From positions 8,122,001 through 8,186,000 of the forward strand of contig NZ_VIWU01000001.1 in assembly GCF_007994075.1 (NCBI RefSeq): DNA of 64,000 nucleotides. The letters are read 5' to 3'. The stretch comes from Pseudonocardia hierapolitana (GTDB lineage: Bacteria; Actinomycetota; Actinomycetes; Mycobacteriales; Pseudonocardiaceae). Shown in pieces: positions 4,798-35,501 of this stretch. Under the pieces are notes generated by a model that saw nothing but the letters and a program-made list of their open reading frames with translations, did no database searches and was not told the origin of the DNA. Made by a program: the position numbers and the translations under genes. Position 1 is the first letter of the stretch; each line of letters begins with the position of its first letter.

Positions 4798-4826
4798 GCT
4801 GCTCCCGTTCGCCGGCTGAGCACAGC

Positions 4827-4866
4827 CTGCAAACCATTGCAGCAAGTGTCAAGAACGGAAGCGCTT
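4827..4866 (-). promoter_or_regulatory. lacI-type gene promoter with two operator-like palindromes
   Basis: On the minus strand TTGACA (4852-4847) is followed after 17 bases by CAGGCT, a plausible -10. Between the two hexamers, and overlapping the -10, lies CTGCAA-N4-TTGCAG (4827-4842, perfect arms). Just upstream of the -35 lies AAGCGCTT (4859-4866), the core typical of LacI-family operators. This arrangement fits repression by the adjacent LacI protein. Binding is inferred, not shown. Confidence 0.55.
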
Positions 4867-4871
4867 ACGGT

Positions 4872-5035
4872 AGTGGTTTCGACCGGAAGTCCGGTGCGTA
4901 GATCGGCGGATCCAGGTTTCCGCTGGGTGTGCCGGCGGGCCGGCCTCGTACCGGGCGTACTCGGCCGGTTCGCCGGTGCGCCCAGCGGGAAGCTGGGCCG
5001 TCGAGATACGTGCTGGACTTCCGGTCGGAACCACT
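4872..5035. repeat. structured dispersed element, copy 1
   Basis: The core (4873-5034) is 162 bp and matches 35309-35470 without gaps at 125 of 162 positions (hand count). Its ends form a 20-bp inverted repeat (4873-4892 with 5015-5034) with one T-G wobble. Inside are further stems: 4918-4927 with 4981-4990, CCGGCG (4932-4937) with CGCCGG (4971-4976), CCGGCC (4940-4945) with GGCCGG (4963-4968), and GTAC (4948-4951) with GTAC (4957-4960) around the loop CGGGC. At least seven base pairs differ from copy 2 by changes on both sides that keep pairing. It lies between the GMC gene stop and the lacI promoter. The minus-strand frame is open and gives a similar peptide in both copies, but no start or ribosome site is evident. 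Confidence 0.8.
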
Positions 5036-6790
5036 TCACCAGGAGTCGGCGAAGAGCGAGGCCCCCGAGGGCGACGCCTGCGCAGGCGCCGGAGCCGGCG
5101 CAACGACCCGCTCTTCCGGGGGCGCCACGAGCCGCGGGCGGCTCGGCACCCTCGGCGGGAGCGGCGCGTTGCCGATGATGATGTCGGCCGCCTTCTCGGC
5201 GATCATCATCGTGGGCGCGAGCGTGTTGGCGTTGGTCAGCGACGGCATCACCGACGCGTCGACCACGCGCAGCCCGTCGACACCGTGCACCCGCATGGTG
5301 TCGGGGTCGACCACCGCGAGCTCGCCCCGCCCCATCGCAGCGGTGCAGGCGGGGTGGTAGCCGACGCGACCGACCCGCCGCACCCAGGCCATGATCTCCT
5401 CGCCGGTGCGCACGTGCGGTCCCGGGAGCGTCTCACCGCCGTCGAGGTGCTGGAACGCCGGCTGCGCGAGCAGGTGACGGGCCCGCTGGACGGCGTTGAT
5501 CCACCGGTCCTTGTCCTTGGGGTCGGACAGGAAGTTCGCGACGATCTTCGGGTGCACGGCCGGGATCGGCGAGGCGATCTTGACCGAACCGCGCGCCTCC
5601 GACCGCATCACGCCGACGTGCATCTGGTAGCCGTGCGCGGTGACCTCGACCGACTCGTCGGAGCTGTTCATGGCGAGCGGCGCGAGCAGGAACATGAGGT
5701 CGGGCTCGCCGCCCTCGGCGAAGTCGCTGCGGACGAAACCGCCCGCCTGCATCGGGTTGCGGGTGCCCGGGCCCTTTCCGAACACCAGTGCGTCGAGCAC
5801 GACGCCCGGCCACTTGGCCTTGTTGCGGATGTCGGACATCGACACCGGCTGGATGCACTTGTGCTGGACGTGCACGGCGAGGTGCTCCTGCAACGACTCG
5901 CCCACACCGGGCAGGTGGTGCACCACGGGGATGCCCAGCCCGCGCAGGTGCTCGCCGTCGCCCACCCCGGACAGCTGCAGGATCTGCGGCGTGCCGATCG
6001 CGCCGGCCGACAGGATCGTCTCGGAGGCCCGGACGTCGTGCGTCTCGCCGTTCTTGTCCCGGTACCGGACGCCCACCGCCCGCGTGCCCTCGAAGAGGAC
6101 CTTGCTGACCGTCGCGTGGGTGCGGATCTCGAGGTTCGGCCTGCTCTCCACCGGGTGCAGGTACGCGACCGCGGCCGACGCGCGCTTCCCACCCCGGACC
6201 GCCTGGTCCAGTGGGGAGAAACCCTCCTGCGCGTCGTCGTTGACGTCGGGGACGACCTTGTAGCCGGCCTGCTGCGCCGCCTCGAAGAACGCGTCGAAGA
6301 TCGGGCCCTCCGCCGGGCCGCGGTGCAGCGACTGCGGGCCGCTGCGGCCCCGGCCGGTGCCGCGCGGTTCGCCCACGCAGCCCTCCAGCCGCCGGAAGTA
6401 CGGCTCGCAGTGGGTGTAGTCCCACGCCTCCGAACCGGCCTCCGCGGCCCACCGGTCGTAGCTCGCCCGGTGGCCGCGCTCGTAGATCATCCCGTTGATG
6501 CTGCTCGAGCCACCGAGGACCTTCCCCCGCGGGTGGTGCAGCCGCCGCGAGCCGAGGCCCGGCTCGGGCTCGGACTCGTAACGCCAGTCGAAGTTGCGGT
6601 GACCGACCGGGAAGCCCATCGCCAGCGGCAGCTGGATCCGCAGGTCCCACCAGTGGTCGGGGCCCCCGGCCTCCAGCAGCAGCACCCGCACCGACGGATC
6701 GGCGGTCAAGCGGTTGGCCAGGATGCAGCCGGCCGGACCGCCACCGACGATCAAGACGTCATAGCCGGAAACAGACACTTCGTCCCTCAC
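5036..6790 (-). CDS. GMC-family FAD oxidoreductase, choline dehydrogenase-like
   Basis: A 584-residue flavoprotein that oxidises an alcohol. The N-terminal Rossmann motif is DVLIVGGGPAGC, with the GMC signatures HPRGKVLGGSSSINGM (about residues 85-100) and SAGAIGTPQILQLSG (about 270). The C-terminal active-site region has GYHPACTAAMG and the final NANTLAPTMMIAEKAAD block. Closest in type to BetA, but substrate is unproven. Starts at GTG 6790 or GTG 6778 are both possible. After the usual end of the fold there is an unusual tail of about 45 residues rich in Pro, Ala and Arg. Its stop codon abuts the end of the structured repeat at 4872-5035, so the tail might have been shaped by that insertion (inference). 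Confidence 0.9.
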   Translation of the reverse strand: MRDEVSVSGYDVLIVGGGPAGCILANRLTADPSVRVLLLEAGGPDHWWDLRIQLPLAMGFPVGHRNFDWRYESEPEPGLGSRRLHHPRGKVLGGSSSINGMIYERGHRASYDRWAAEAGSEAWDYTHCEPYFRRLEGCVGEPRGTGRGRSGPQSLHRGPAEGPIFDAFFEAAQQAGYKVVPDVNDDAQEGFSPLDQAVRGGKRASAAVAYLHPVESRPNLEIRTHATVSKVLFEGTRAVGVRYRDKNGETHDVRASETILSAGAIGTPQILQLSGVGDGEHLRGLGIPVVHHLPGVGESLQEHLAVHVQHKCIQPVSMSDIRNKAKWPGVVLDALVFGKGPGTRNPMQAGGFVRSDFAEGGEPDLMFLLAPLAMNSSDESVEVTAHGYQMHVGVMRSEARGSVKIASPIPAVHPKIVANFLSDPKDKDRWINAVQRARHLLAQPAFQHLDGGETLPGPHVRTGEEIMAWVRRVGRVGYHPACTAAMGRGELAVVDPDTMRVHGVDGLRVVDASVMPSLTNANTLAPTMMIAEKAADIIIGNAPLPPRVPSRPRLVAPPEERVVAPAPAPAQASPSGASLFADSW

Positions 6791-35280: not shown

Positions 35281-35305
35281 TTCCGACGAACGGCGCGTTG
35301 GTCGG
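35281..35305. repeat. left 25-bp near-palindrome flanking repeat copy 2
   Basis: This stretch is the reverse complement of 35477-35501 with one mismatch. Each copy is itself nearly symmetric, built on CCGACGAACG. Together they bracket the structured element, so the outer inverted repeat continues beyond the element ends. Such flanks are absent around copy 1. Confidence 0.7.
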
Positions 35306-35473
35306 CTAGTGCTTCCCGCCGGAGGTTCGTCGGGGGTATCGGTGGATCCAGCTTCTCGCTGGGAGTGCCGGCGGACAGCCCTCGTACCGGGCGTACTCGG
35401 GCTGGTCGCCGGTGCGTCCAGCGTGGAGCTGGGCCGCCGAGATCCTTGACGAACCTCCGGCGGGGAGCACTAG
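35306..35473. repeat. structured dispersed element, copy 2
   Basis: Second copy of the element at 4872-5035. The outer arms, 35306-35331 and 35448-35473, pair over 26 bp with one T-G wobble. The apical stem is CAGCCC/GGGCTG where copy 1 has CCGGCC/GGCCGG, and the GTAC-CGGGC-GTAC tip is identical. Outer pairs 4, 9, 10, 16 and 19 (counted from 35309) are all switched on both sides relative to copy 1. It lies between divergent paaG and paaZ, so it is not simply a terminator. Confidence 0.8.
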
Positions 35474-35476
35474 GTA

Positions 35477-35501
35477 CCGACGAACGCGCCGTTCGTCGGA
35501 A
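35477..35501. repeat. right 25-bp near-palindrome flanking repeat copy 2
   Basis: Contains the perfect inverted repeat CCGACGAACG-CGC-CGTTCGTCGG (35477-35499) and mirrors 35281-35305. The half-site resembles the operator half-site CCGAACGAAC seen before paaA and paaZ, so it might bind the same or a related protein. Confidence 0.65.

Follow-up and report, generated by a model that had tools for sequence, protein, structure and literature searches.

The stretch at 4872–5035 of the window, by which we mean the whole 64-kb piece of DNA analysed (8,122,001–8,186,000 of the 8.86-Mb single-contig Pseudonocardia genome), corresponds to one 164-bp net insertion and belongs to a dispersed family of elements whose mobility is well supported by genome comparison. 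The explanation that we consider likely is that of a non-autonomous IS630/Tc1-mariner MITE that is moved in trans and whose core is kept at the RNA level. Alignment with empty sites shows a net 164 bp inserted at TA (in CTAG or CTAC), often the TA of a stop codon, and pairwise comparison shows that several end types resemble IS630-family terminal repeats. The two arms of the element covary, and of its two strands one has by far the better predicted fold.

The two copies in the window

The copies at 4873–5034 and 35309–35470 are identical at 125 of 162 positions without gaps, and our recount thus returned the figure given in the original prediction. With the target bases included, the full unit is 168 bp long with the ends (C)TAGTG...CACTA(G), against a net insertion of 164 bp relative to empty sites. 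The two copies represent two subfamilies, A (copy 1) and B (copy 2), which differ mostly in the outer 30 bp. Their features, in coordinates of the window, are as follows.

4870..5037, plus strand: copy 1, subfamily A, with 2 target bases on each side (net length from the empty sites of another copy)
35306..35473, plus strand: copy 2, subfamily B, with 2 target bases on each side
4872..4903, plus strand: left terminal inverted repeat of copy 1, from the end comparison
5004..5035, plus strand: right terminal inverted repeat of copy 1, from the end comparison
35308..35339, plus strand: left terminal inverted repeat of copy 2, with the 13-mer GTTCGTCGGGGGT common with the transposon IS1
35440..35471, plus strand: right terminal inverted repeat of copy 2
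4904..5003, plus strand: core hairpin of copy 1, conserved above the outer arms, G·T far in excess of A·C
35340..35439, plus strand: core hairpin of copy 2, conserved above the outer arms, G·T far in excess of A·C
4945..4964, plus strand: conserved apex of copy 1, CTCGTACCGGGCGTACTCGG (GUAC stem, CGGGC loop)
35381..35400, plus strand: conserved apex of copy 2
5036..6790, minus strand: ORF whose stop codon is flush with the right end of copy 1 (insertion at a gene end)

Each copy is predicted to fold into a single hairpin, at −147 kcal/mol for copy 1 and −143 kcal/mol for copy 2 (z = −15.9 and −13.4, respectively; 0 of 200 shuffles equally good). Ten of the 69 pairs present in both predicted folds are altered on both sides, and this number drops to 2–7 when the 3′ partner is slid by 1–3 bases as a control. 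The outer pairs 4, 9, 10, 16, and 19 and the two apical pairs that had been reported as doubly changed are all among these 10. The original prediction had read them as a sign that the fold is kept while the sequence drifts. The double changes are real, but 8 of the 10 lie in the outer stems, where they are weak evidence for an RNA because these stems are transposon inverted repeats, both arms of which must match the same transposase; the core gives the stronger evidence.

Copy 2 (window 35285–35500) sits between two similar operator-like palindromes, CCGACGAACG..CGTTGGTCGG on the left and CCGACGAACGCGCCGTTCGTCGG on the right, and looks as if it had landed between or inside the regulator sites of a divergent promoter region.

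Spread, insertion sites, and ends of the family

The family occupies at least 61 places in the home chromosome, 43 of them recovered by BLAST and 18 added by a covariance model of diverse members. Both parts of this total are lower bounds: the BLAST copies come from the best 40 of 164 and the best 40 of 170 candidates scored, and the added places, counted after taking the better strand, from the best 150 of 25,411 candidates. Boundaries of the 43 BLAST copies were set by script for 35 and by hand for 8. Within the genus, covariance model R1 has matches in at least 31 of 62 Pseudonocardia genomes (tallied from the best 46 matches per genome, or the best 13 in another search), and across the phylum model R2 has matches in at least 19 of 396 genomes and at least 14 of 237 genera (best 7 matches), all of these tallies being lower bounds as well. 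The covariance search that the original prediction had proposed therefore yielded further copies both in the genome and in its relatives.

Members of 166–169 bp occur in Streptomyces and Prauserella. The length is 164–170 bp in 23 of 24 phylum matches despite sequence drift, in a search whose model itself prefers such a length, and 20 of 24 phylum loci examined start with CTAG or TTAG. Matches outside the class reach only 51–77 bits, and some may be unrelated hairpins. Phages gave no match to the element and viral contigs 0 matches to the apex pattern; in plasmids, copy 2 as query found 1 weak match, a Streptomyces member 53 Streptomycetaceae records, and the member L311 none.

Many members (L311, L305, L124, and L162 among them) carry opposed GCAAGGCG and CAACGC segments that make up an A-rich internal loop, in place of which subfamilies A and B have pairs. 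Seven closely similar copies in the home genome (L366–L371 and L373) have the ends CTAGGAGGGTCCTGA and the same kind of core; this subfamily was probably active recently, and no helper transposon for it was found in the 2.19 Mb searched.

The insertion sites were compared with those of relatives, as the original prediction had also proposed, and orthologous empty sites were found. None of the 11 relatives whose sequence aligned on both flanks has the copy at 596495 (G000:C1). The adjacent copy at 597528 occurs in relative G020 and is missing from the other 10. The empty sequences of the closest relatives read CCCACTAGGACTT, CCCACTACGACTT, or CCCACTACGCCTT, which gives the net insertion of 164 bp. 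Two further sites differ reciprocally between the home genome and G042, one of them not cleanly, its junction bases being different; in 14 stretches of G042 no element aligned to a home copy at the same site, over the part of the home genome compared. The empty sites (CCACTAG, CCACTAC, GATGTA...) identify the target as TA. Across 37 aligned copies, the A at position 3 and the T at position 166 are invariant and the outer T and A are variable; an A...T element placed between T and A yields the same sequence as a TA duplication.

Many of these targets lie at gene ends. On the gene strand of the first locus, the target TA belongs to a stop codon that overlaps the next start (TAGTG), and for 14 of 43 copies a predicted gene ends in a stop codon that coincides exactly with the terminal TAG of the element, a count that rests on our own simple gene finder rather than on annotation. 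On the Streptomyces plasmid pADI95-16a, the stop codon of an annotated hypothetical protein falls inside the terminal CTAG. No transposase gene lies within the element, and its copies are multiple and dispersed.

A likely source of mobility was found in the ends. The home genome has four DDE_3 genes in CTAG-flanked elements with inverted repeats starting TAGTG. Three of these elements are copies of IS2, and the fourth, IS1 (G000:C1, ∼207 kb), has the ends CTAGTGGTC...GTTCGTCGGGGGTC and a transposase of the IS630 family (NF033545, 167.8 bits; cut-off, 100). Subfamily B and IS1 have the 13-mer GTTCGTCGGGGGT in common at the same offset, and the home subfamily B ends match at 22 of 30 positions with the home IS1 and at 23 of 30 with an IS1 relative in G059. 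Counted after CTAG, IS1-type ends (22–24 of 30 matches) are found in the home subfamily B, G034, and G017, IS2-type ends (21–22 of 30) in G057 and G040 (G057 at 22), and ends of the type of IS3, a transposon from G027, in nine genomes (19–24 of 30, with seven at 21–24). At 286 other [CT]TAG sites the maximum was 18 of 30, the elements having had two ends to match and these null sites one. The comparison covered 25 of the 30 genus representatives and two home copies. Subfamily A ends are borderline (best 17–19 of 30, to IS1 or IS4; for copy 1, the better of its ends matches the IS1 type at 18–19 against a null maximum of 17–18), and the ends of the G061, G056, G059, and G019 elements have no match among the IS types compared.

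TA insertion at empty sites, together with several end types that match IS630 terminal repeats, argues for an IS630-type MITE. The proposal of a small mobile element agrees with this. Of the further proposal that the element is mobilised in trans, mobility is the well-supported part, and the end similarity makes an IS630 helper likely; from these comparisons, the element is probably an IS630-type MITE that is mobilised in trans.

The ends appear to have been exchanged between members. The core of window copy 1 is 90% identical to that of the G057 element, and the outer arms are 38% identical (shuffled, 27%, sd 6). At least five end types occur in the home genome, and closely similar cores can be flanked by different end types; end exchange, as read from these alignments, is modular. 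A chimeric copy at 1,928,359 (L073:9360–9525), with an A-type left half and a B-type right, is possibly an intermediate in such an exchange.

Against this reading stands the distribution of the candidate helpers, which in some element-rich genomes are missing or lack matching ends. IS1 homologues occur in 25 of 62 genomes and show no tendency to accompany the elements: they are found in 11 of the 31 element-bearing genomes listed (12.5 expected); at ≥64% identity, six of eight genomes with an IS1 homologue carry elements. The IS that matches an element is often found in a different genome, and G059 has IS1 although the element listed for it belongs to another end type. G012 has at least 36 element matches yet no DDE_3 gene at E = 1e-3, the G042 loci examined hold no transposon with matching ends, and in the sequence searched no transposase-bearing element was found with ends of the types TAGGCCGTGTTC, TAGGAGGGTCC, and TAGGGYCTGTC. 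For TAGG-type ends, no transposon with a transposase was found in 2.19 Mb. An end-pattern search of the home genome for an autonomous element with the same ends returned, at one mismatch or fewer, only known copies or an 80-bp copy. Further matches, at two or three mismatches and outside known copies, were examined at all but three places (near 1.05, 1.69, and 5.86 Mb); they proved to be minute hairpins or solitary matches. In the comparison with IS630 loci, the core matched at only one, L261 of G042, which has a separate complete copy of the element beside it.

Two loci deserve mention in their own right. L261 (G042:C1, 6.40 Mb) holds a DDE_3 gene of 375 aa ∼0.7 kb from the complete element copy, and no inverted repeats bounding this gene were recognised. 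At L081:3808–6969, a 3.16-kb unit is bounded by the two halves, in correct relative orientation, of an element with CTAGGAGGGTCC-type (TAGG-type) ends. The roughly 3 kb that they enclose contain genes for an aldo/keto reductase and a GntR/aminotransferase-type regulator, with no transposase found inside, and may be either a split element or a passenger unit.

Conservation of the core and asymmetry of the strands

The conservation of the family was assessed in alignment A3, which contains 39 members (27 of the 30 genus representatives and 12 others, 8 of which were found via the apex pattern). The information per column is 1.45 bits at the apex, 1.32 bits at positions 37–48, and 1.28 bits at positions 121–132, compared with ∼1.0 bit in the terminal 12 bases and a minimum of 0.63–0.69 bits in the outer arms (positions 13–36 and 145–156). 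With the 8 apex-found members removed, the three core values become 1.45, 1.49, and 1.56 bits and the outer arms 0.74–0.80 bits, such that the core is better conserved than the outer arms in either case. In A3, 91.5% of cells pair and 52 of 59 pairs have changed on both sides. The covariation score of 0.631 compares with 0.220 (sd 0.009) after shuffling and with ≤0.147 after sliding, the latter control leaning in favour of the structure because the structure was derived from A3 itself. Part of the outer-stem covariation in A3 reflects the matching of both ends to one transposase. The covariation that was first seen between two copies thus persists in a larger alignment.

The mismatches within the arms distinguish the two strands. 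A G·T position pairs in RNA, and the other strand reads A·C at the same place, which does not pair. In the 43 home copies we counted 511 G·T, 19 A·C, and 279 other mismatches, G·T making up 63% of the total and the remainder being mostly other non-pairs. Thirty relatives, hand-picked as full-length members among 72 loci, have 265 G·T, 45 A·C, and 237 other mismatches, with G·T exceeding A·C in 29 of the 30, and in the core only of the 39 diverse members the counts are 222 and 39. The asymmetry is weaker in 17 of the added home places (108 G·T versus 43 A·C) and in the 24 phylum matches (153 versus 53, ∼3:1), 22 of which have the same direction and 2 more A·C. In the 43 home copies and the 30 relatives, arms were aligned by Watson-Crick scoring only, which is strand-neutral. 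Strand labels came from sequence alignment for the 43 home copies; those of the 18 added places and the phylum matches were assigned by the covariance model, which prefers G·U. The plus strand is predicted to be the more stable in 43 of 43 copies, by a mean of 36 kcal/mol.

The large excess of G·T over A·C indicates that the fold is kept in one strand. Most simply, that strand acts as RNA, with folding of single-stranded DNA as a formal alternative. Of the readings offered in the original prediction, a structured RNA is supported as a second layer upon the mobile element by this asymmetry and by the covariation among the 39 diverse members, whereas a protein-binding cruciform, which exposes both strands, fails to explain the asymmetry. 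A spacing of G·T that serves to break the DNA palindrome was also considered and rejected, the run being shorter than the null in only 9 of 36 cases.

It is unlikely, although it deserves to be weighed seriously, that the element is an ordinary IS630-type MITE with a functionless fold, in which hairpin-templated correction maintains the palindrome, strand-biased mutation produces the G·T positions, and both arms are matched to the same transposase. With both ends matched to one transposase, the outer arms would be expected to covary, and they contain 8 of 10 double changes between the window copies; the ends match IS630 repeats; and the asymmetry weakens in distant members. Long palindromes self-correct, which would fit as well. 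Templated correction would, however, act equally on G·T and A·C and remove both, but A·C is much the rarer of the two, and deamination on the exposed lagging template, which is mostly the minus strand, predicts A·C in the plus strand, the opposite of what is seen. Neither the conservation of the core above the outer arms, which persists without the apex-found members, nor the near-constant length of 164–170 bp in 23 of 24 phylum matches (found with a model that prefers this length) is expected of a fold without function.

The element is also oriented with respect to replication. The dnaA gene lies at 3.536 Mb, with GC skew mostly negative on one side and positive on the other. The plus strand runs against the fork in 36 of the 43 BLAST copies (p = 9e-6); with the added places, 48 of the 61 listed have the same polarity (p = 8e-6), the 18 added places alone giving 12 of 18 (p = 0.12). 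In G042, in which dnaA is at the contig start, 32 of 44 copies have this polarity (one-sided p = 0.002), or 31 of 44 with the terminus placed at 4.8 or 5.35 Mb, these 44 being the matches listed of at least 46. In a post hoc division, copies within 1 Mb of dnaA (2.54–4.54 Mb) have the usual polarity in 5 of 12 cases versus 43 of 49 beyond. Gene orientation was rejected as the source of the bias, since only 57% of the predicted gene length runs in the direction of the fork, which is not enough to produce a figure of 79%. With the plus strand against the fork, the lagging-strand template usually carries the minus strand, which forms the weaker hairpin. Hairpins on the lagging-strand template cause deletion, and the orientation is most likely a survival bias.

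This polarity, the hairpin form, and a target duplication that is unprovable could all be accommodated by a single-strand DNA element like IS200/IS605 or a REPIN, entering via the lagging strand and hence biased in orientation. We regard such an element as very unlikely: the inverted repeats match the ends of IS630 transposons, which have a DDE transposase, the TA/CTAG target fits IS630, and the strand on the lagging template is usually the one that folds worse.

Shortened copies were found as well. An 80-bp copy joins bases 1–40 (40/40) and 129–168 (39/40) of a subfamily-B copy, another is 98 bp long, and five hairpins of 26–38 bp, with ends identical or similar to those of the element, occupy CTAG sites (L238:2200–2225, L239:1988–2013, L082:5383–5408, L240:2017–2054, and L241:2032–2069). 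With the middle lost and both ends kept, the short copies look like the products expected from hairpin-mediated deletion, although the smallest hairpins may instead be independent small elements. A retro-element-like spread through RNA would account for the fold at the RNA level, the strand bias, and one copy at 316166 that has no left end, but its probability is slighter still, given that the ends match DNA-transposon repeats and that the shortened copies keep both ends and lose the middle rather than the 5′ end. Least probable of all is a small peptide, which the original prediction had kept in view because the minus frame is open: with 6-base ends trimmed, one minus frame is indeed stop-free in 36 of 36 copies, but this openness says little because all six trimmed frames are stop-free in at least 30 of 36, and the codon-level comparison found variable columns without codon periodicity (A, 37/42/34; B, 9/10/11), length changes that are not multiples of three, and substitutions that follow base pairing.

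The element has no counterpart among the RNA families searched. Rfam 15 has 0 families at gathering score in the window, and in the loci of 20 relatives only two tRNAs outside the element. In a relaxed scan of 4800–5100, all matches were far below gathering score (best, MIR918 with 64 of 268 bits), and a known RNA family was rejected, the sub-threshold microRNA and VA matches being taken as generic long-hairpin matches. Searches of the largely open-access literature gave no description of the family, and the portions of PMC4681348 and PMC2864571 available to us contain no description of it.

For the MITE with an RNA-level core, we propose the following course of events. An IS630 transposase would act in trans on the two ends and move the element by cut and paste into TA. 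An insertion that preserves the stop codon of a gene or provides one (TA plus the G of the element) would explain why the surviving copies sit at gene ends. The core would be maintained as RNA, plus-strand transcripts forming an ∼80-bp imperfect hairpin with a GUAC-YGGGC-GUAC apex. At replication, the plus strand, with its stabler hairpin, would be kept off the lagging-strand template, and the shortened copies would be deletions of this kind. Two extensions are more tentative. The core could be a structured RNA in its own right, with a conserved apex, a near-fixed length, and a specific partner that reads the apex, surviving by repeatedly acquiring the ends of resident IS630-type transposons; we hold this to be possible, at rather less than even chances. 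A role of the stable hairpin in insulating or processing read-through transcripts, which would allow the copies to be tolerated, is a guess, and a somewhat more doubtful one.

Relationship to known systems

If the RNA reading is true, a common part of Pseudonocardia and Streptomyces genomes that lies outside Rfam would be a family of selfish or domesticated RNAs, and the ratio of G·T to A·C would provide a cheap general test for palindromic repeats that are kept as RNA. The orientation bias makes the survival of palindromes at replication forks testable on natural copies.

The presumed helper belongs to the IS630 family, which the element resembles, as far as that family is described in the sources available to us, in its TA target, its CTAG preference, and its related terminal repeats. 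Tenzen and Ohtsubo reportedly found in 1991 that the TA lies in 5′-CTAG-3′. In the part of PMC2170065, on ISY100, that was available to us, transposition of the family into TA is described as occurring with duplication of the target. Unlike IS630 insertion sequences, the present element has no transposase gene.

A close parallel is RUP of Streptococcus pneumoniae, for which IS630-Spn1 was suggested as the mobilising element (Oggioni and Claverys 1999, as cited in PMC2229807) and which, in the accessible part of PMC2229807, is 107 bp long with 9-bp repeats and otherwise without a signature of structure or function. Both are short and non-coding with IS630-like ends and TA insertion, RUP having about a hundred copies (PMC2229807, in the same part). 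The present family differs from RUP, as there described, in its ∼80-bp hairpin, a core common to Pseudonocardia and Streptomyces, several end types, and replication polarity.

ERIC/IRU and Correia/NEMIS are, in the same portion of PMC2229807, MITE-like with TA termini and transcripts that fold into long stems, and ERIC affects mRNA stability in one orientation. The present element is likened to them in its MITE-like form, terminal TA, and long stem by this partial description and not by sequence. To our knowledge, neither an excess of G·T over A·C nor an exchange of ends has been reported for ERIC or Correia.

The MRSC-65-2 motif, as far as it is described in the available part of PMC11109978, has a single long covarying stem in dozens of copies per genome, sometimes near transposase genes, is suspected to be selfish, and has a UYCCGG repeat as its hallmark in diverse phyla (PMC11109978). 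By that published description only, the two are alike in the long covarying stem and in copy number.

A REPIN consists of two short inverted REP sequences with a GTAG-type foot, which differs from the one continuous ∼80-bp hairpin with IS630-type ends found here. A MITE would be expected to retain its ends while its middle is lost; this family, in contrast, has kept the middle and exchanged the ends. If the core is an RNA with interchangeable ends, the family would be a bacterial counterpart of SINEs in its logic, with the RNA as the part that is selected.
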